A stretch of 36,447 nt of DNA from Ectothiorhodospiraceae bacterium (GTDB lineage: Bacteria > Pseudomonadota > Gammaproteobacteria > Nitrococcales > Aquisalimonadaceae), in NCBI GenBank assembly GCA_020831885.1, contig JAFIFU010000005.1, positions 90,071 to 126,517 of the forward strand, given 5' to 3'. Both the position numbers and the translations under genes were made by a program. The notes under the pieces were generated by a model. The model made no database searches, was not told the DNA's origin, and saw nothing but the letters and a program-made list of their open reading frames with translations. Below are positions 5,784 through 22,383 of the stretch, piece after piece (within the stretch, counting starts at the first letter, position 1; every line of letters starts with the position of its first letter).

Positions 5784-5826
5784 TGGGATATGCGGATTCG
5801 GTGGTTCTGTAATATCGAAAAAGTGT

Positions 5827-5843
5827 AAAATATCGGAAATTAT
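5827..5843. promoter_or_regulatory. Candidate GntR operator upstream of the regulator gene
   Basis: AAAATATC-G-GAAATTAT is an imperfect inverted repeat 60 bases before the GntR-family start codon. Its right arm plus the next base (GAAATTATG) is identical to the arm of the perfect palindrome at 20485-20503; the left arm matches 6 of 9. It overlaps a -10-like hexamer TAAAAT (5826-5831), so binding there would repress the gene's own transcription. A second, weaker copy of the left half (TAATATCGAAA) lies at 5810-5820. Operator function is inferred, not shown. Confidence 0.5.
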
Positions 5844-5902
5844 GGCGCGGGTTTGCCCTGAGCTTCCCCGTGATTTCGTATCCACTGCCGAGGAGCCCTG
5901 TC

Positions 5903-6643
5903 ATGGCTTCCAATGTGATCTGGCCCCATGGCCTGCAACACGTCGGGAAGCGTCCCGGTTCGCCCACCCTGGTGCAGGCGACTTACGATGCCATGCGCGA
6001 GGATATCCTCAGCGGCCGGTTGCAGCCGGGTACCAAGCTGCGGGCCGAGGCGCTGAAGGAGCGCTACAATGTTGGTGCCAGCACCCTGCGGGAGGCGCTG
6101 AACCTGCTGGTGGGCGAGGCCCTGGTTGCCTCTGAGGGGCAAAAGGGATTCCGTGTCACGCCCATGTCGGAAGCGGATTTCCGCGATATTGTCCGCGTGC
6201 GCAAGATGCTGGAAACCCAGGCGCTGCGCGAGGCCATTGAGCACGGTGACGACGATTGGGAAGCGGAGGTGGTGGCCGCCTTCCACCGCCTGTCGCGGAT
6301 CGAGGAACGCGTCTCGGGGGATCCGGCAGGCCTGTCCGGGGAGTGGGAAGAGCGCAATCGCGCCTTCCATGCGGCGCTGATCTCGGCGTGTCCGTCCCGC
6401 TGGCTGCACCACTTTATCGGTATTCTCTTTCATCAATCGGAGCGTTACCGGCGTATCGCATTCTCTCAGTCTCAAGGGCCGGTAAAACGCCGTGATGTGC
6501 ACGGAGAGCATGAGGCCATCTACGAGGCCGCCATTGCCCGGGATGCTGACCGGGCCTGCGCCCTGACCGAGCAACACATCGACCGCACGCTCAGCTTTCT
6601 CAGTGAAGGGGGCGCATTCCAGCAGCTCGGAGCGCACCAGTAG
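5903..6643 (+). CDS. GntR-family (FCD) transcriptional regulator
   Basis: A 246-residue DNA-binding regulator. A GntR winged helix-turn-helix occupies about 22-88 (TYDAMREDILSGRLQPGTKL, then RYNVGASTLREALNLLVGEA as the recognition unit, and GFRV in the wing). An FCD ligand-binding all-helical domain follows at about 92-235, with the metal/ligand His-bearing helices RAFHAALI, GEHEAIYEAAI and EQHI; the usual Asp before FHxxL is Asn here. An AGGAG seven bases before ATG 5903 fixes the start; the frame also opens at 5870. It is convergent with the end of the phenol operon. In Comamonas testosteroni the GntR-type AphS represses the aph phenol genes, and by position and family this is a likely counterpart. 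The effector (perhaps a pathway intermediate) is unknown. Confidence 0.9.
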   Translation: MASNVIWPHGLQHVGKRPGSPTLVQATYDAMREDILSGRLQPGTKLRAEALKERYNVGASTLREALNLLVGEALVASEGQKGFRVTPMSEADFRDIVRVRKMLETQALREAIEHGDDDWEAEVVAAFHRLSRIEERVSGDPAGLSGEWEERNRAFHAALISACPSRWLHHFIGILFHQSERYRRIAFSQSQGPVKRRDVHGEHEAIYEAAIARDADRACALTEQHIDRTLSFLSEGGAFQQLGAHQ

Positions 6644-6776: not shown

Positions 6777-6968
6777 TCAGCGCCCCAGCTCTTTTGCCGT
6801 CTTGCCGCCAATCCCCCAATGGGTTTTCGGCATCTCGCTGATCAGGATGCGCACCGCCTCCGGGGGCGCGTTCAGCGTCCGGCAGATGGTGTCGGTCATC
6901 TCCTTGATCAACCGGGCCTTGGTTTCCTCGTCGCGGCCTTCCAGGATGTGGATCTGGCACAATGGCAT
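6777..6968 (-). CDS. dmpI: 4-oxalocrotonate tautomerase
   Basis: Isomerises 2-hydroxymuconate (4-oxalocrotonate enol) to 2-oxo-3-hexenedioate in the oxalocrotonate branch of the meta-cleavage pathway. The 63-residue chain is the standard 4-OT size. After Met removal, the catalytic base Pro1 is at the N-terminus (MPLCQIHILEGR); Arg11 and Arg39 that bind substrate are both present. The aromatic position that is Phe50 in the Pseudomonas enzyme is Trp here (KTHWGIGG). A GAGGA seven bases upstream supports the start. It is the last gene of the dmp operon, 16 bases after dmpH; its end faces the GntR gene across two REP-like hairpins. Confidence 0.93.
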   Translation of the reverse strand: MPLCQIHILEGRDEETKARLIKEMTDTICRTLNAPPEAVRILISEMPKTHWGIGGKTAKELGR

Positions 6969-6984
6969 GGCGTTGTCCTCGTGA

Positions 6985-7779
6985 CTACTCGGTAAAGCGG
7001 ATGCCGACGCTGCCCAGGCCCTGGGCACGGACGGTGGCGGTATCGCCGGGTTTCACGGCCAGGGCCGCGGTGATGGCGCCACTGAGCACCAGACTGCCCG
7101 CGGGCAGGGACTCGCCGTGTTCCCCCAGCATGTTCACCAGTTGCGCCACACTGTTGGCCGGATGGCCCAGTACGGCCGCTCCCGCTGCGGTTTCCACCGG
7201 TTCGCCGTTGATCTCCAGCACCACGCCAAGGCTGCGCAGATCCAGCCCTTCCACGCCGGAGACCGTGCCGCCGGTGACAAAACCGGAGGACGAGGCGTTG
7301 TCCGCAATCACGCTCACCAGATCGAAGCGGAAATCCTTGTAGCGTGAATCGATGATCTCGATGGCGGGCATCACGAACTCGGTGGCCGCCAGCACCTGGG
7401 CCACATTGCAGCCCGGACCCTTGAGCTCCCGCTTGGTGACAAACGCGATTTCCGCCTCCACCTTGGGGTGGATAAAGCGGCTCACTGGTACGGCATTGCC
7501 TTCCTGCACCTCGAAGCTGTCCGACAGGAAGCCGTACACGGGGCTGTCCACGCCCATCTGCTCCATCTTGGCACGGGAGGTCAGGCCCATCTTGTAGCCG
7601 ACAATGGTTTCCCCGCGCGCCTGCTTGCGGTCGCGGATCGCGCGCTGGACCGCATAGGCGTCCTCGAAATCCATGTCCGGATGGTCGTCCGTGATCTTGA
7701 TGACTTCACGGCATTCCAGTTGGGCGTTCTCCAGGTGTTCGGCCAGCTGCTTGATCTGTTCCTGTGACAACGTGCTCAC
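6985..7779 (-). CDS. dmpH: 4-oxalocrotonate decarboxylase
   Basis: Decarboxylates 2-oxo-3-hexenedioate to 2-hydroxypenta-2,4-dienoate, working in complex with the hydratase DmpE so that the unstable dienol is handed over. 264 residues, Mg-dependent, in the fumarylacetoacetate hydrolase-like/hydratase superfamily. Visible family segments are [16 protein letters not shown], the metal-binding EAEIAF, and [14 protein letters not shown]. It is an ancient paralogue of dmpE in the same operon. The start codon is GTG at 7779, preceded by GGAGG at six bases, and it overlaps the dmpG stop as GTGA, implying translational coupling. Confidence 0.93.
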
Positions 7780-11469: not shown

Positions 11470-12930
11470 TTACAGTTTCACGCAGACGTTGGACAGTTCG
11501 CTGTAGAACTCCAGCCCGTGCACGCCGCCCTCGCGGCCGATGCCGGACTGCTTGCTGCCGCCGAAGGCGGTACGCAGGTCCCGCAGGAACCAGGAGTTCA
11601 CCCAGATCAGGCCCACGTCCAGTTTTGGCGCCACGCGGTGGGCGCGGGTCAGGCTCTCGGTCCAGAACGTGGCGGCCAGGCCGTAGGGCGTGTCATTGGT
11701 CAGACGGATGGCCTCGTCCTCGTCGTCGAAGGGGCGCACGTGGCAGCAGGGGCCGAAGATCTCCTCGTTCACCACCGCCGAGTCGTCCGGCAGGCCGGTC
11801 CAGATGGTGGGCTGAATCCAGGCGCCTTCGGCCAGTTCATCACCCATGTCCGGCACGCCGCCGCCGGTGACCACGGTGGCGCCGTCTTCCACCGCCTTGC
11901 GGTAGTAGCCCAGCACCTTGTCCCGGTGTTCCGTGCTGATCAGCGGGCCGAAGTTCACTTCCGGGTCGTCGTACCAGCCCATGCGCAGGCCTTCCGCGCC
12001 CTGGCGCAGCCGCTCCACGAATTCATCGAAGCGGGAGCGGTGGACGTATACCCGTTCGGTGCCGAAACAGACCTGGCCGCAGTTGGCGAAGGCGGACCGC
12101 AGTGTGCCTTCGATGGCCTTGTCTATATCCGCGTCCTCGAACACGATGGCGGCGTTCTTGCCGCCCAGCTCGAAGGACACGTCGCGGATACCGTCTGCCG
12201 CCGCCTTCATGATGGCAGTGCCGGTACGGGTCTCGCCGGTAAAGGTGATGGCGTCCACGCCCGGATGGCGGGTCAGGGCCTCGCCGGCGGAGTCCGGGCC
12301 GAAACCGTGCACCACGTTGTAAACGCCCTTGGGAATGCCGGCGGCGTTCATCACCTCACCCAGCAGGGCGGCGGTGTGCGGGGTTTCCTCGGAGGGCTTC
12401 ACCACCACCGTGTTACCGCAGGCCAGGGCCGGACCCACCTTCCAGGTCATCAGCAGCAGCGGCAGGTTCCACGGCGAGATCACGCCGATCACGCCCTTGG
12501 GCCGGCGGATGGCGTAGTTCAGCGCGCCGGTGCCGTCCGGGGTGTCCATAGCGAAGCTTTCCGTGGGCACGTTCTTCACCAGGTCGGCAAAGACCTTGAA
12601 GTTGGCCGCACCCCGGGGAATGTCGATGTGGGAAGCCATGGAGCGCGGCTTGCCGGTGTCCAGGCACTCGGCCTGGAGGAAGTCCTCAAAACGGGCGTTG
12701 ATGCCGTCCGCCACCTTGTGCAGCAGTTCCATGCGGCGGGCAATGGGCATGCGGCCCCATTCGCCGTGCAGCGCCTGGCGGGCGGCCTGAACCGCCTGGT
12801 CGATCTCCCGGGCCCCGCCCTCGGCCACCCGGGCGATCACGTCGCCGTTGGCCGGGTTGATGTCGTCGAACCAGCGGTCCTGGGCGGAGCCCACGTAGCT
12901 GCCGTTGATGAAATGCTTGATGTCTTTCAT
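11470..12930 (-). CDS. dmpC: 2-hydroxymuconic semialdehyde dehydrogenase
   Basis: NAD-dependent aldehyde dehydrogenase, 486 residues, oxidising 2-hydroxymuconic semialdehyde to 2-hydroxymuconate, the entry of the oxalocrotonate branch that dominates for catechol itself. PWNLPLLLMTWKVGPALACG is the coenzyme-site region, general base Glu254 lies in FELGGKNA, and the nucleophile is Cys288 in NCGQVC. GGIHGLEFYSELSNVCV-like C-terminal sequence (here GGVHGLEFYSELSNVCV) is typical of this substrate class. It lies 25 bases downstream of the HbpS-like gene. Confidence 0.94.
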   Translation of the reverse strand: MKDIKHFINGSYVGSAQDRWFDDINPANGDVIARVAEGGAREIDQAVQAARQALHGEWGRMPIARRMELLHKVADGINARFEDFLQAECLDTGKPRSMASHIDIPRGAANFKVFADLVKNVPTESFAMDTPDGTGALNYAIRRPKGVIGVISPWNLPLLLMTWKVGPALACGNTVVVKPSEETPHTAALLGEVMNAAGIPKGVYNVVHGFGPDSAGEALTRHPGVDAITFTGETRTGTAIMKAAADGIRDVSFELGGKNAAIVFEDADIDKAIEGTLRSAFANCGQVCFGTERVYVHRSRFDEFVERLRQGAEGLRMGWYDDPEVNFGPLISTEHRDKVLGYYRKAVEDGATVVTGGGVPDMGDELAEGAWIQPTIWTGLPDDSAVVNEEIFGPCCHVRPFDDEDEAIRLTNDTPYGLAATFWTESLTRAHRVAPKLDVGLIWVNSWFLRDLRTAFGGSKQSGIGREGGVHGLEFYSELSNVCVKL

Positions 12931-12955
12931 GGGTGTGTCCCCGTGGAATGTCGAT

Positions 12956-13381
12956 TCAGTTCGCCAGGGCGTTCAGCCCGGCCCGGGCGCAGGCCTCGTC
13001 CTGTTCCTCGCTGCCGCCGGAGACGCCGATTCCGCCCACGCACGCGCCATCCAGGGTGACGGGCAGCCCCCCGCCGAACATCACCAGACGGGGGCGGGCG
13101 GCCAGGCCGCTGGCCAGATTGGTATTGCCGGCGGTGACCTTGTCCCAGTCGGCGGTGGACAGGCCGAAGCCGGCGGCGGTGTAGGCCTTGTCCTCGGCGA
13201 TGCCGGCGGAGTGCAGAAAGGCGCCGTCCATGCGCAGCAGGCAGCGCGTGTGTCCGGCCCGGTCCACCACCGCCACCACGATGGCAATGCCCAGGCGCTC
13301 CGCTTCCTGGACTGCGGCAGCGGCCGCTGTCAGGGCGGCATGGTGGGAGATGAGGTGCTGAATGCTGGTCTGACCGCTCAT
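12956..13381 (-). CDS. GlcG/HbpS-like (DUF336) protein in the phenol operon
   Basis: A 141-residue cytoplasmic protein of the GlcG/HbpS family (DUF336), a small alpha/beta fold; HbpS of Streptomyces binds heme, but most members have no proven function. Typical segments are AIVVAVVDRAGHTRCLLRMD, DKAYTAAGF and GGGLPVTLDGACVGGIGVSG. There is no signal peptide, unlike HbpS. Family members recur in aromatic meta-cleavage operons, where their role is unproven. It stands between the upper genes (dmpB and the ABM protein) and dmpC, directly after a probable internal promoter, so it is the first gene of the lower-pathway section. GGGAG eight bases before ATG 13381 supports the start. Confidence 0.85.
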   Translation of the reverse strand: MSGQTSIQHLISHHAALTAAAAAVQEAERLGIAIVVAVVDRAGHTRCLLRMDGAFLHSAGIAEDKAYTAAGFGLSTADWDKVTAGNTNLASGLAARPRLVMFGGGLPVTLDGACVGGIGVSGGSEEQDEACARAGLNALAN

Positions 13382-13453
13382 TGTTCGTGCTCCCGCTGAA
13401 TAGAGCCGCTTCTCTGCACGCGTCCGGGACGCGTGCCGTTTCGATGTATTGGG

Positions 13454-13482
13454 AACATAGCAAAAATTTCGAGATTTTCCAA
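13454..13482 (-). promoter_or_regulatory. Probable internal sigma70 promoter for the lower pathway
   Basis: On the minus strand TTGGAA (13482-13477) and TATGTT (13459-13454) are separated by exactly 17 bases, each matching 4 of 6 consensus positions. The start point would fall near 13447, about 65 bases before the HbpS-like gene. The region is the most AT-rich part of the operon interior. Half-sites related to the proposed GntR operator overlap the spacer and -35. Confidence 0.5.
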
Positions 13483-13498
13483 TAAAGCGGAAATTTTA
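13461..13498. promoter_or_regulatory. Candidate GntR half-sites over the internal promoter
   Basis: AAAAATTTC (13462-13470, 7 of 9 to CATAATTTC) and GAAATTTTA (13490-13498, 7 of 9 to GAAATTATG) flank the internal promoter in inverted orientation, and AAAATTTCGAGATTTT (13463-13478) is itself a near-palindrome. None has the exact one-base spacer of the sites at 5827 and 20485, so this is the weakest of the three proposed operators. Confidence 0.35.
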
Positions 13499-14077
13499 AT
13501 GCCCGGGCGATCCCCGAAACAGCCAGGGCTTGAGCAAACGGGTGACCCTGGGCATGACCACGTAAGTCAATAACAGCACCTGCAGTGTCACGACCACCAG
13601 TAGCTGCGGGATCCAGTGGAGCTGATCCAGAATGGGTGCGAGGATCAGGTTGATGATCAGCAGCAGAAGGAACACCACCACGATCAGGGTCAGCGCCATG
13701 CGGTGCTGGGAGGGCTGAGCGTGCACCGGCACTTCCGGCAGGTCGAACCAGAATTCCAGACCCGTGACCCTGCGGACCTGTTCGTCCCCCTCGATCATGT
13801 CATCCAGGCGCGCGGTCCAACGGGCGCGTTCCTCGGACTCCTCCCAGGCCTTGCTGTGCGCGTAGGTGTCGAAGCGGTAGATGATCACGTATTCGCCGCC
13901 GGTCGCCGCGCTGGGGCGTAGCACATCCACACCCAGGTGGCCGGGCCATTGCTGGGCGGCCTGGGTCACGCCACGGACCCATTCCTCATAGTGTTCTTCC
14001 ATTCCCGGACGGATGCGCCGGGAGACGGCGACTGTGACCGGGCCTTCGGAAGTGGCCTCTTCCGGTTTCGCTGCCAT
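13496..14077 (-). CDS. ABM-domain protein with two C-terminal membrane helices
   Basis: A 193-residue protein. Residues about 13-112 form an antibiotic-biosynthesis-monooxygenase (ABM) ferredoxin-like fold: VTVAVSRRIRPGMEEHYEEW, WPGHLGVDVLRP, EYVIIYRFDTYAHSKAW. Two hydrophobic helices follow (about 128-150 and 156-176), then a short Arg/Lys-rich tail, so the ABM domain should sit at the inner membrane, probably on the cytoplasmic side. Resembles COG3224-type proteins. GGAGG seven bases before ATG 14077 defines the start. It is inserted in the phenol operon between dmpB and the HbpS-like gene, a position empty in the classical Pseudomonas dmp operon. No function is established; quinone or aromatic-radical handling would be speculation. 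Confidence 0.8.
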   Translation of the reverse strand: MAAKPEEATSEGPVTVAVSRRIRPGMEEHYEEWVRGVTQAAQQWPGHLGVDVLRPSAATGGEYVIIYRFDTYAHSKAWEESEERARWTARLDDMIEGDEQVRRVTGLEFWFDLPEVPVHAQPSQHRMALTLIVVVFLLLLIINLILAPILDQLHWIPQLLVVVTLQVLLLTYVVMPRVTRLLKPWLFRGSPGH

Positions 14078-14235
14078 TGGCCTTCCTCCGGATGGTATAC
14101 GTGCCCAGCCGATGTGTGGGTGCGCTCGCCCGGGCTTGCCGGACTGCGTGTTCAGTTGATGGTGCTCTGAGCCGACAGGCAAAGCGCACCACCGACCAGC
14201 CCGTCGGCAACTGGATAGCACCGCCAGGGTTGTAG

Positions 14236-20115: not shown

Positions 20116-20343
20116 TCACAATCCGCCCTCGCGCCATTTCGCGCGGTCGGCGTCCAGTGCCCGTGCCTCCTCGTCTGAGAGGAACTGCACGGCGTTGTTT
20201 TTGCAAAACGCATCGAACGCGGGGCGAGGCAGAATGAGTTCCACGTACAGGTCCGGGTCGCCGAGTGAGAAGTCGAACTCCACGAATCCGTCATCCCGCT
20301 CCGCGGTCACCCGGACAAAGCGCTGCTGGTTGAATACGGCCAT
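20116..20343 (-). CDS. dmpK: Phenol hydroxylase assembly protein DmpK
   Basis: First gene of the operon; 75 residues from ATG 20343, or 82 from the in-frame ATG at 20364. DmpK is thought to help assemble the active (iron-loaded) oxygenase and to inhibit the mature enzyme when in excess. Recognised by QRFVRVTAER, DGFVEFDFSLGDPDLYVELILP and AFDAFCKNNAVQFL. The expected sigma54 transcript would begin near 20416, giving a leader of about 70 bases. Confidence 0.9.
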   Translation of the reverse strand: MAVFNQQRFVRVTAERDDGFVEFDFSLGDPDLYVELILPRPAFDAFCKNNAVQFLSDEEARALDADRAKWREGGL

Positions 20344-20425
20344 TGGTGATCCCTGCTCTGTCATCGCCACAAGGGCGTTGCCTGAATTCCGTGCACGGGG
20401 CACGGGCGATCACTGGATATTGCTA

Positions 20426-20441
20426 TGCAGAAGCCGTGCCA
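20426..20441 (-). promoter_or_regulatory. Sigma54 (-24/-12) promoter of the phenol operon
   Basis: The minus strand reads TGGCAC-GGCTT-CTGCA, matching the consensus TGGCAC-N5-TTGCA at all but one position, with invariant GG and GC at the required spacing. Predicted start near 20416. Position directly upstream of dmpK and the presence of a DmpR-type activator make this the operon promoter with high likelihood. Confidence 0.85.
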
Positions 20442-20470
20442 AACTGTTAAGTTGTTGAAAGGGTTTGTTT

Positions 20471-20486
20471 TGCTGCGCCTGCAGCA
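20471..20486. promoter_or_regulatory. Inverted repeat TGCTGC-N4-GCAGCA
   Basis: TGCTGC (20471-20476), four bases, GCAGCA (20481-20486). It shares the TGC(T/A)GCA words of the proposed activator site at 20529-20544 and overlaps the first two bases of the palindrome at 20485. It could be a second, promoter-proximal activator or competitor site. Confidence 0.35.
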
Positions 20487-20503
20487 TAATTTCAGAAATT
20501 ATG
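20485..20503. promoter_or_regulatory. Perfect palindrome, proposed GntR operator at the divergent promoters
   Basis: CATAATTTC-A-GAAATTATG is a perfect inverted repeat with 9-base arms, centred about 78 bases upstream of the predicted sigma54 start. It lies between the enhancer-like repeat and the sigma54 promoter, and it contains or touches two -10-like hexamers for the divergent activator gene (CATAAT 20485-20490 and TATGAT 20500-20505; no clear -35). A closely related site precedes the GntR gene at 5827. Symmetry and position fit a dimeric repressor acting on both directions. Confidence 0.6.
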
Positions 20504-20528
20504 ATAAATTGATGAAATCATGAAATGC

Positions 20529-20544
20529 TGCAGCAATTGTTGCA
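20529..20544. promoter_or_regulatory. Proposed upstream activating sequence for the DmpR-like activator
   Basis: TGCAGCAATTGTTGCA is a 16-base inverted repeat with one mismatch per arm pair, centred on CAATTG like the XylR/DmpR enhancer (TTGATCAATTGATCAA). Its centre is about 120 bases upstream of the predicted start, near the usual enhancer distance. A further half-site TTGCTGCA follows at 20549-20556, possibly part of a second, weaker copy. Confidence 0.6.
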
Positions 20545-20703
20545 TGATTTGCTGCACATGAGGCTGACGGAAGCCCACGATCCGTCAGCGCTCCCTGACC
20601 TTCCCCGCGAGCGCATGGATCAGGGGGTCGAACACGAGAAGGTGCTGGTCCCCCCGGCGGGATGCCGAAGACACAGCACCGGTGCGCCGCTTGGGAGGAG
20701 CAG

Positions 20704-22383
20704 ATGGCCCGGGGAATCGATTTCGGAAAACTGCCTGAGCTGGCCTCGCGCCTGCATCTGTCGTTCAGATCAGGCCATATATCGCTGGAGGGGCAGCGCA
20801 TGGTGCTGCTGCATACCAGTGCGCTGGCGTCCCTGCGACGGGAACTGGTGGAAACCCTGGGTATGCACCGGGCCCGCGGCGTGCTCACGCGTATGGGCTA
20901 CGCCTCGGGTCAGCACGATGCGGACATGGTCCGTCGCATGATGCCCGATGCCTGTGACAACGATCTGATGAGCCTCGGCCCCCAGTTGCATTCTCTGGAG
21001 GGAATCGTGGACGTCACGCCCATCCGCTTCGAGATCGACGTTGCCGCCGGCCAGTTCTATGGGGAGTTCGCCTGGGACAACTCCCACGAGGCCGAAGGGC
21101 ACCTGGAGCAGTTCGGGCTGCATTTTGACCCGGTCTGCTGGACGCAGATCGGCTACGCATCGGGCTATACCAGCGCCGTGATGCGGAAACCGGTGCTGTA
21201 CCGCGAGGTGCAATGCCGGGGGCGCGGTGACGAGCGCTGCATGATTGTGGGCAAACTGGTGTCCGAATGGGGTGATGAGGTGGCGGAGGAATTGCGCTAC
21301 TTCGAGCCGCAGCGGGTGGCGGATCAGATCGTGGAGTTGCAGAACCAGGTGGAGCATCTCCGCTATTCCATCGACGAGAAGATGGAATCCGTGGACCTGG
21401 TGGGCGGTTCGCCCGCCTTCCGGGAAACCACTGCGATGATCGAGAAGGCGGCCAGCAGTGATGTCACTGTGTTGCTGCTGGGGGAGACCGGTGTGGGCAA
21501 GGAACTGTTCGCCCGCGCCATTCACCGCACCAGCCGGCGCGCGGAACGGGATTTCGTGGCAGTGAACTGCGCCGCCATGCCGGAGGAACTGATCGAGTCC
21601 GAGTTGTTCGGTGCCGAGAAGGGGGCATTCACCGGTGCCCAGCAGTCCCGCCCGGGTCGGTTCGAGCGTGCCCACGGCGGCACGCTGTTCCTGGACGAGG
21701 TGGGTGAGTTGTCCCCGGCGGCTCAGGCCAAGCTGCTCCGCGTGCTGCAGGAGGGTGAGTTCGAGCGGGTGGGCGACACCCGCACACGCAAGGTGAACGT
21801 GCGCGTGATCGCCGCCACCAATGTGGACCTGGCGGAAGCCGCCCGGGCCGGGCGCTTCCGTGCGGACCTGTACTACCGGCTGAACATATTCCCGGTGCTG
21901 ATCCCGCCGTTACGGGAGCGCCGGGAGGATATCCCGCTGCTGGTGGAGCGTTTTCTGGACAAGTACAACGCCCGCCACGGCAAGCGTGTGCCGGGGCTGA
22001 CCGGGGATGCGCTTGCTGCACTCACACGCTACGACTGGCCCGGCAATGTGCGGGAGCTGGAGAACATGATCGAGCGGGGCGTGATCATCGTGCCCAGCGG
22101 CGAATACATCGGCCGTGAGCAGCTCTTCCCGCGGATGTCCTTCGGGGCCGCGGTGCCGCCGGAGCCGGCCGCGGATCCGGGCGATGCCGCCCCCGCCGGC
22201 GCAGGTGGTCTCGACGGCGTGGTTGATCGGGCGCTGGAGGAACGTGTGCCGCTGGAGGAGTTGGAGGAGCGATTGATCCAGGCGGCCATGGAGCGCTGCA
22301 ACGGTAATCTCAGTGCGGCGGCCCGGCAGTTGGGCATCAGCCGCGCGAAACTGGCCTACCGGCTGCAGAAGCGCCGGGGGTAG
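20704..22383 (+). CDS. dmpR: DmpR/MopR-type sigma54-dependent phenol-responsive activator
   Basis: A 559-residue NtrC-family activator. The XylR-N/V4R sensor domain (1-210) keeps the zinc site known from MopR (Cys145, Glu168, Cys171, Cys179, with identical spacing) and the phenol-pocket residues His96, Phe122, Trp124 and Tyr166. The AAA+ domain (about 235-475) has Walker A GETGVGKE (260-267), the sigma54-contact GAFTGA (306-311) and [10 protein letters not shown] Fis-type helix-turn-helix closes the protein ([20 protein letters not shown]). GGAGG five bases before ATG 20704 sets the start; an earlier in-frame ATG at 20662 lacks support. Divergent from dmpK, it should activate the operon when phenol binds and ATP is hydrolysed. 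Confidence 0.95.

Follow-up and report, generated by a model that had tools for sequence, protein, structure and literature searches.

The closest described counterparts of the locus studied here are the phenol (aph) genes of Comamonas testosteroni TA441 and the biphenyl genes under BphS or BphR1 in KKS102, KF715 and Polaromonas pPNAP01. In TA441, a GntR repressor, AphS, is set against a DmpR-type activator through multiple operators, and one of its sites stands in the divergent region between the activator and hydroxylase genes (PMC3063778, PMC6449761). As described in PMC3063778, this site is placed around an IHF site, outside the enhancers, and interference with IHF was suggested. The lower genes of TA441 answer to AphR and to the LysR regulator AphT (PMC6449761). 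The operator motif given for AphS (phenol) and BphS (biphenyl) is AAATmTCGAkATTT, an even palindrome, and the enhancers of the DmpR-type group are spaced by 29-42 nt (PMC6449761). BphS and BphR1 control biphenyl dioxygenase genes, and the effector described for KKS102 BphS is a ring-cleavage product (PMC10282184). In the account of PMC4494728, FadR-subfamily regulators as a whole show two spacings one base apart between groups, and GntR palindromes often possess a weaker adjacent half-site 7-12 nt from the site centre.

A similar arrangement is found in the 36,447-nucleotide stretch of DNA from an Ectothiorhodospiraceae bacterium that was analysed here (the window), which belongs to a genome (G000) of 4,134,570 bases in 129 contigs. 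It contains a phenol-degradation cluster whose minus-strand gene run starts at 20403 and reads downwards in the order dmpK, L, M, N, O, P, Q, B, an orfX-like gene, an orfY-like gene, dmpC, D, E, F, G, H and a dmpI-like gene. Among the enzyme genes of the cluster, only dmpK and dmpN were identified by Pfam; the other dmp letters and the names orfX and orfY are presumed from gene order and homologues, orfY being a name from the aph literature (Table 1). A longer frame for the orfY-like gene (12927-13463) had no Pfam or NCBIfam match. The last gene of the operon is apparently a small frame within 6777-7028 (minus strand), which contains MPLCQIHILEGR and which we take to be the dmpI-like tautomerase. 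Divergent from dmpK stands a dmpR-like gene (20704-22383), whose product possesses the DmpR/XylR-type domain set (XylR_N, V4R, AAA+ and Fis-type HTH); its top NCBIfam match, MobR, scored 611.6 bits, below the cut-off of 999. In genome G016, a second DmpR-like regulator (L030, G016:C24:28518-30161; 48% identical) adjoins dmpB- and orfX-like genes. Whereas the repressor gene of TA441 follows aphR, some 14 kb separate gntR from dmpR here, and gntR lies past the distal end of the operon, with which it converges.

Table 1. Genes, operators and promoter elements of the phenol cluster in the window
Feature	Position	Strand	Basis
Candidate accessory operator Oa of gntR, AATATCGAAAAA, centred 18.5 bp before Ob	5811..5822	none	within conserved block
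Candidate gntR operator Ob, AAAATATC-G-GAAATTAT, 1-base spacer	5827..5843	none	second-best genome match to palindrome; 12/14 to published half-sites
gntR, FadR-type GntR regulator (wHTH + FCD), AphS/BphS class	5903..6643	+	Pfam GntR 5e-17, FCD 5.6e-24; tree grouping with AphS-like and BphS proteins
orfY-like, first gene of lower set orfY-dmpC-D-E-F-G-H-I	12956..13381	-	ORF; homologues adjoin dmpC in relatives
Putative internal sigma70 promoter TTGGAA-17-TATGTT, TG before it	13454..13482	-	inferred; read by eye; below promoter-scan cut-off
Candidate internal (lower-pathway) operator, AAAATTTCGAGATTTT, even palindrome with one unmatched pair	13463..13478	none	consensus match; identical in congener
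Accessory half-site GAAATTTTA beside internal operator	13490..13498	none	sequence; GAAATTTTA in congener too
orfX-like gene, ABM domain, last before internal promoter	13496..14221	-	Pfam ABM 7.8e-9
dmpK, first gene of phenol hydroxylase operon	20116..20403	-	Pfam Phenol_hyd_sub 5.4e-25
sigma54 promoter of dmpKLMNOP operon, TGGCACGGCTTCTGCA	20426..20441	-	1 mismatch to TGGCACGNNNNTTGCW
Candidate dmpK-dmpR operator O1, CATAATTTC-A-GAAATTATG	20485..20503	none	sequence, shuffles, genome scans, conservation
Putative promoter-proximal DmpR enhancer (UAS)	20510..20524	none	3 mismatches to TTGATCATTTGATCA; overlaps accessory half-site 20514-20521
Accessory half-site GAAATCAT, 19 bp after O1 half-site	20514..20521	none	inside 44-base run 20481-20524 identical in congener
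Putative distal DmpR enhancer	about 20541..20555	none	alignment only: GATTT invariant in six regions
dmpR-like sigma54 activator	20704..22383	+	XylR_N, V4R, Sigma54_activat, HTH_8

A preliminary description of this DNA had pointed to a perfect palindrome between dmpK and dmpR, with a close relative just before gntR and looser half-sites over an internal promoter. The palindrome, CATAATTTCAGAAATTATG, is indeed perfect, with two 9-base arms flanking a single A, and 100 dinucleotide-preserving shuffles of the window gave no match to it within 3 mismatches. The relative before gntR was found as well (AAAATATCGGAAATTAT at 5827-5843), and GAAATTATG at 5836-5844 is the right arm of the palindrome. 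When the own genome was scanned with ATAATTTCNGAAATTAT at up to 3 mismatches, three sites were found: the palindrome (0 mismatches), the gntR site (2) and a site on contig C11 (3). As the backward control also gave three sites at this threshold, only the ranks at 0 and 2 mismatches are informative. Across eight of the nine relatives searched (G002 set aside; rounded sizes add up to about 33 Mb), a single site in total had at most 2 mismatches. At that rate, about 0.12 chance sites with at most 2 mismatches would be expected in the own genome, and the chance of such a site falling in the 120 bases before gntR is, by our own arithmetic, a few in a million. The match on C11, AATGTTTCAGAAATTAT (G000:C11:8741-8757; L003 1501-1517), stands at the start of an open frame, and the 3-mismatch site of G002 is a different sequence.

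The sites were then scored against the published operator class. AAATNTCGANATTT, a form of the published AphS/BphS operator, has one perfect match in the own genome, at window positions 13464-13477; the gntR site is among 15 further sites at two mismatches, and the control gave 8 sites in all. By the published half-site GAkATTT, with spacers of 0-3 allowed, the best place in the window is the internal site (13/14, no spacer) and the second best is the gntR site (12/14); the palindrome has 10/14, a score common to 24 other rows of the window scan, and these last two sites reach their scores only with a one-base spacer. In 5000 mononucleotide shuffles of the local sequence, 13/14 was reached once for the internal site (55 bases), 12/14 was reached 10 times for the gntR site (50 bases) and 10/14 was reached 1246 times for the palindrome (61 bases), whose surroundings are AT-rich. 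On sequence, the published motif identifies the internal and gntR sites as candidate operators without help. By this consensus alone the palindrome is not above chance, and the published matrix would not pick it out. Sites at 13461-13498 are thus present as had been described, but the term looser does not hold for them: the even palindrome at 13463-13478 has the best score of the window, and the internal site is the strongest of the three, not the loosest.

A pattern drawn from the three window sites, AWAATHTC-N(0/1)-GADATTWT, was used for genome scans. Its exact matches in the window are circular; the informative part of the scan is the absence of other sites together with the result in the congener G002 (an Ectothiorhodospiraceae MAG, locus L018, with a GntR 94% identical), because neither of these is circular. 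With at most one mismatch, the matches to AWAATHTC-N-GADATTWT were the gntR and dmpK-dmpR sites and no others in the own genome, and their two counterparts alone in G002. AWAATHTC-GADATTWT matched nothing but the internal site and its counterpart, and the controls gave 0 matches for either form. Many unrelated genomic hits of equal score, which the preliminary description had named as evidence against its reading, were not found in G000 or G002. When two mismatches were allowed, the count for the one-base-spacer pattern was 5 for the own genome (control 1) and 4 for G002 (control 0); a Rhodospirillum MAG genome had 13 (control 3). This last genome also has a one-mismatch odd site, ATGATTTCAGAAATTTT (G421:C49:19489-19505; L081), and its GntR/DmpR-like locus is on another contig, C106.

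Comparison of the same intergenic regions in related genomes, which had been proposed as a check, revealed that the sites are kept in G002. The alignments of the three regions included short flanking coding stretches, and gap columns were counted as different in the permutations. The dmpK-dmpR regions are 65% identical overall, and a 44-base identical run covers the palindrome; the gntR regions are 55% identical overall, and a 34-base run (5810-5843) covers both gntR sites, with diverging flanks. Neither run was reached in any of 5000 column permutations. The internal site is also identical in G002, but the whole stretch around it is 85% identical; 151 of 5000 permutations equalled its 37-base run, which therefore counts for less as evidence.

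A counterpart of the palindrome was also found in a Saccharospirillum MAG, in which GntR and DmpR are each 74% identical to those of the window. There, ATTATTTCTGAAATTATG stands at the place aligned to the palindrome, and most of the rest of the region differs. It is the single best match of that genome for AWAATHTCNGADATTWT (1 mismatch; 26 others at 2, control 21), and it scores 9/14 by the published half-sites, other words of the region scoring 10. The gntR site of this MAG is one of the 26 two-mismatch matches, set against 21 control matches; its spacing between Oa and Ob is the same as in the window, and GAAATTAC occurs at the same 19-bp offset as the accessory half-site at 20514-20521. 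Sites of the TCGATAAAA type are present at the aligned dmpK-dmpR place in G016 and G034 (words TCTCGATAAAA, TTTTATCGATAAAA and CGATATAATG). The dmpK-dmpR regions of G014 (best 9/14), G401 and L021 (best 10/14) had no clear AphS-type site despite GntR homologues. The assignment of the palindrome to GntR is supported by conservation, position and a shared half-site: the palindrome probably belongs with the GntR sites because its half-site and one-base spacing are those of the gntR operator, and because it is conserved in G002 and the Saccharospirillum MAG, with AphS-type words at the aligned place in G016 and G034.

An accessory site or half-site was seen 18-19 bp from each main site, as read from the alignments with no separate statistic. 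These are not the same feature as the weaker half-sites described in PMC4494728, which lie 7-12 nt from the centre. A second inverted repeat, TTGCTGCGCCTGCAGCA at 20470-20486, abuts the palindrome; similar words occur in G002, G016, G034 and G014, and it is absent from the Saccharospirillum MAG.

The product of gntR possesses GntR-type wHTH and FCD domains, both with Pfam matches above cut-off, and the FH, EH and HI histidines are invariant in 20 aligned GntR proteins. A tree was built from 33 of the 41 extracted GntR proteins; L002, L048, L018 and L040 (repeats of the window and G002 proteins), L069 and L074 (repeats of L057 and L019), L023 and L025 were left out, and L015 and L016 of the own genome were not extracted. 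The window protein is in a clade with those of G002, the Saccharospirillum MAG and a Rhodospirillum MAG (98/93), and this clade is within a 14-row group whose support, 94/82, is just below the starred level of the tool. Members of the group include AphS-like plasmid proteins of Ideonella and Achromobacter, each encoded directly after a sigma54 activator divergent from phenol hydroxylase genes, and the BphS proteins of Polaromonas pPNAP01 and KF715, which are encoded beside bph genes and are 48% and 44% identical to the window GntR. The two plasmid proteins in AphS-like arrangement and the two plasmid BphS proteins served as stand-ins for TA441 AphS and KKS102 BphS; the Polaromonas BphS is so named in PMC6449761, and the KF715 protein was called BphS from its bph neighbours. 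The other GntR proteins of the own genome were considered as owners of the sites and rejected: the nearest of five is 34% identical and is outside the group. In the window, and in relatives L017, L018, L019 and L021, the gene shares its locus with phenol or biphenyl meta-pathway genes. The distribution of the homologue is patchy: with the own genome included in each count, homologues at an E value of 1e-30 or better were present in 7 of the 59 genomes of the relatives search, and those at 1e-48 in 10 of 369 members of the class and 5 of 54 in the order. The best reading of the sequences is that the system belongs to the described AphS/BphS class, so that its mechanism would be already known and its spacing and gene layout a modest variant; the operators here probably belong to the class published for BphS/BphR1 (PMC6449761).

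At dmpK-dmpR, the palindrome is situated between the sigma54 promoter and the enhancer-like repeats, whose centres are about 31 bp apart. A second 3-mismatch match to TTGATCATTTGATCA, at 20502-20516, overlaps the repeat at 20510-20524. Compared with TTGATCATTTGATCA, the distal repeat has 3 mismatches in its Saccharospirillum counterpart and 5 in G002, and the window copy is not within 5. At the internal place, the operator would fill the spacer of the putative TTGGAA-17-TATGTT promoter; a sigma70 promoter scan at all three operator places gave none that passed the threshold.

The preliminary description had predicted one GntR repressor acting on the activator gene, on the operon and its lower half, and on its own gene, and the sequence evidence supports this: the sites are unique at one mismatch or fewer in two genomes and conserved, and two of them also fit the operator class described for relatives of the GntR protein. 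We consider it probable that a repressor of the AphS/BphS class binds inverted repeats at its own promoter, at the dmpK-dmpR region and at the internal promoter of the lower pathway, that it blocks the activator or looping and excludes RNA polymerase, and that a ring-cleavage product releases it. A GntR dimer would bind half-sites GADATTWT (D = A/G/T, W = A/T) arranged as inverted repeats, with each main site aided by an accessory one: 5827-5843 by 5811-5822 at its own promoter, 20485-20503 by 20514-20521 at the divergent dmpK-dmpR promoters, and 13463-13478 by 13490-13498 at the internal promoter that would start the lower catechol pathway. Between the sigma54 promoter and the enhancers, and touching the proximal one, the repressor would block the activator or DNA looping. 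Such a block on activator access or looping is likely, given the position of the palindrome, the accessory half-site on the proximal repeat and what is reported for AphS (PMC3063778). At the internal promoter, the repressor would sit between the probable -35 and -10 elements and exclude RNA polymerase. By analogy with the effector described for KKS102 BphS (PMC10282184), a catechol ring-cleavage product, e.g., 2-hydroxymuconate semialdehyde, probably releases it.

A different reading is that GntR controls only its own and the internal promoters, and that the palindrome is bound by some other regulator, or by an architectural protein (IHF, for example). Against the published AphS/BphS consensus the palindrome scores poorly. 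Its spacing is odd, and spacer 0 is found in all 11 of the 30 scored regulatory regions (our choice from the fetched loci, fewer than all scorable) that contain a site of at least 13/14. The aph and phc promoters are described as having an IHF site in the corresponding part (PMC3063778). We nevertheless regard this reading as rather unlikely, as the palindrome has the half-site and the spacing of the gntR operator and recognisable AphS-type sites stand at the same place in two relatives. IHF sites are not palindromes, and an identification of the palindrome as one is not supported, the only one-mismatch IHF-like word being elsewhere, at 20448-20460. That the palindrome forms part of a DmpR enhancer array is suggested by the adjoining enhancer-like repeats, by the palindromic nature of DmpR-type enhancers and by enhancer-core matches at 20501-20515 (4 mismatches) and 20502-20516 (3 mismatches) that overlap its last 2-3 bases. 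Against this, none of the matches to TTGATCATTTGATCA with 5 or fewer mismatches has its centre on the palindrome, and the same half-site recurs at the gntR promoter, where no sigma54 or enhancer signs were noticed in passing; this reading appears very improbable to us.

The binding part of the preferred explanation is shared by a reading that is not exclusive of it, namely that GntR activates rather than represses at some sites, as does BphR1 of KF707. GntR-family BphR1 of KF707 and ORF0 of LB400 are described as activators, in relation to operator position (PMC10282184), and the dmpK-dmpR operator does not overlap the sigma54 core promoter. As AphS is described as repressing phenol genes (PMC3063778, PMC6763649) and the internal site would overlap the putative core promoter, we judge activation unlikely. 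Finally, the sites might be chance AT-rich words in GC-rich DNA, and the palindrome alone is unexceptional by the published matrix in its AT-rich surroundings. This had already been made unlikely by the uniqueness of the sites in two genomes (at most one mismatch), by their conservation against diverged flanks and by the best genome match in a third genome, and the probability that we leave to chance is close to nil.

Under repression by a single GntR protein, the spacing of the operators would deserve attention. The window, G002 and the Saccharospirillum MAG all have a one-base spacer at their conserved main site; in the Rhodospirillum MAG, which comes next on the tree, the site is even (AAATCTCGAGATTT, 14/14). 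Two of the operators here carry an extra central base compared with those described for TA441 AphS, and differ likewise from the published even palindromes of BphS/BphR1. Both spacings within one regulon would be unusual, and titles and abstracts of the open-licence literature gave nothing on odd-spaced AphS/BphS operators or on this regulator in the lineage. It is conceivable, though we hold it as a tentative and somewhat doubtful idea, that one GntR dimer reads the even site at the lower-pathway promoter and the odd sites at its own and the activator/hydroxylase promoters, and that spacing sets the order in which the upper and lower genes are derepressed, a job done in Comamonas by the LysR regulator. 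The odd form would then have arisen in a lineage common to the genus and the Saccharospirillum MAG, since the best sites of the Rhodospirillum MAG and of most other scored regions are even.

The layout differs from that of relatives as well. In the catechol/phenol clusters of G014, G016 and G034 (L006, L007 and L008; L008 945-2758), an even operator of the TCGATATTTT type is found between divergent gntR and orfY, and the gntR homologue of G034 is flanked by orfX and orfY. The orfX-orfY junction of the window is 114 bases long and has the even operator and a putative promoter but no gene, gntR being at the end of the operon. Compared with TA441, where the lower genes answer to AphR and AphT (PMC6449761), the junction has no LysR gene, and a candidate GntR operator overlaps the putative internal promoter. 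Most simply, gntR would have moved away and left operator and promoter behind at the junction. Alternatively, one gntR may have been replaced by another, because the GntR proteins of G014, G016 and G034, 45-49% identical to that of the window, are in a neighbouring tree group.

These results provide a concrete, testable map of a proposed regulon around a phenol cluster; for this gammaproteobacterial lineage, no such work is among the papers listed. They suggest how a repressor gene could leave the orfX-orfY junction without loss of the operator there, and that an operator of the AphS/BphS class may change its half-site spacing yet keep its place. If true, the use of both spacings by one regulator would bear on the tolerance of the dimer toward spacing and on operator evolution. 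For phenol sensors based on DmpR, the map serves as a reminder that promoters of this kind can be subject to a second, negative input.
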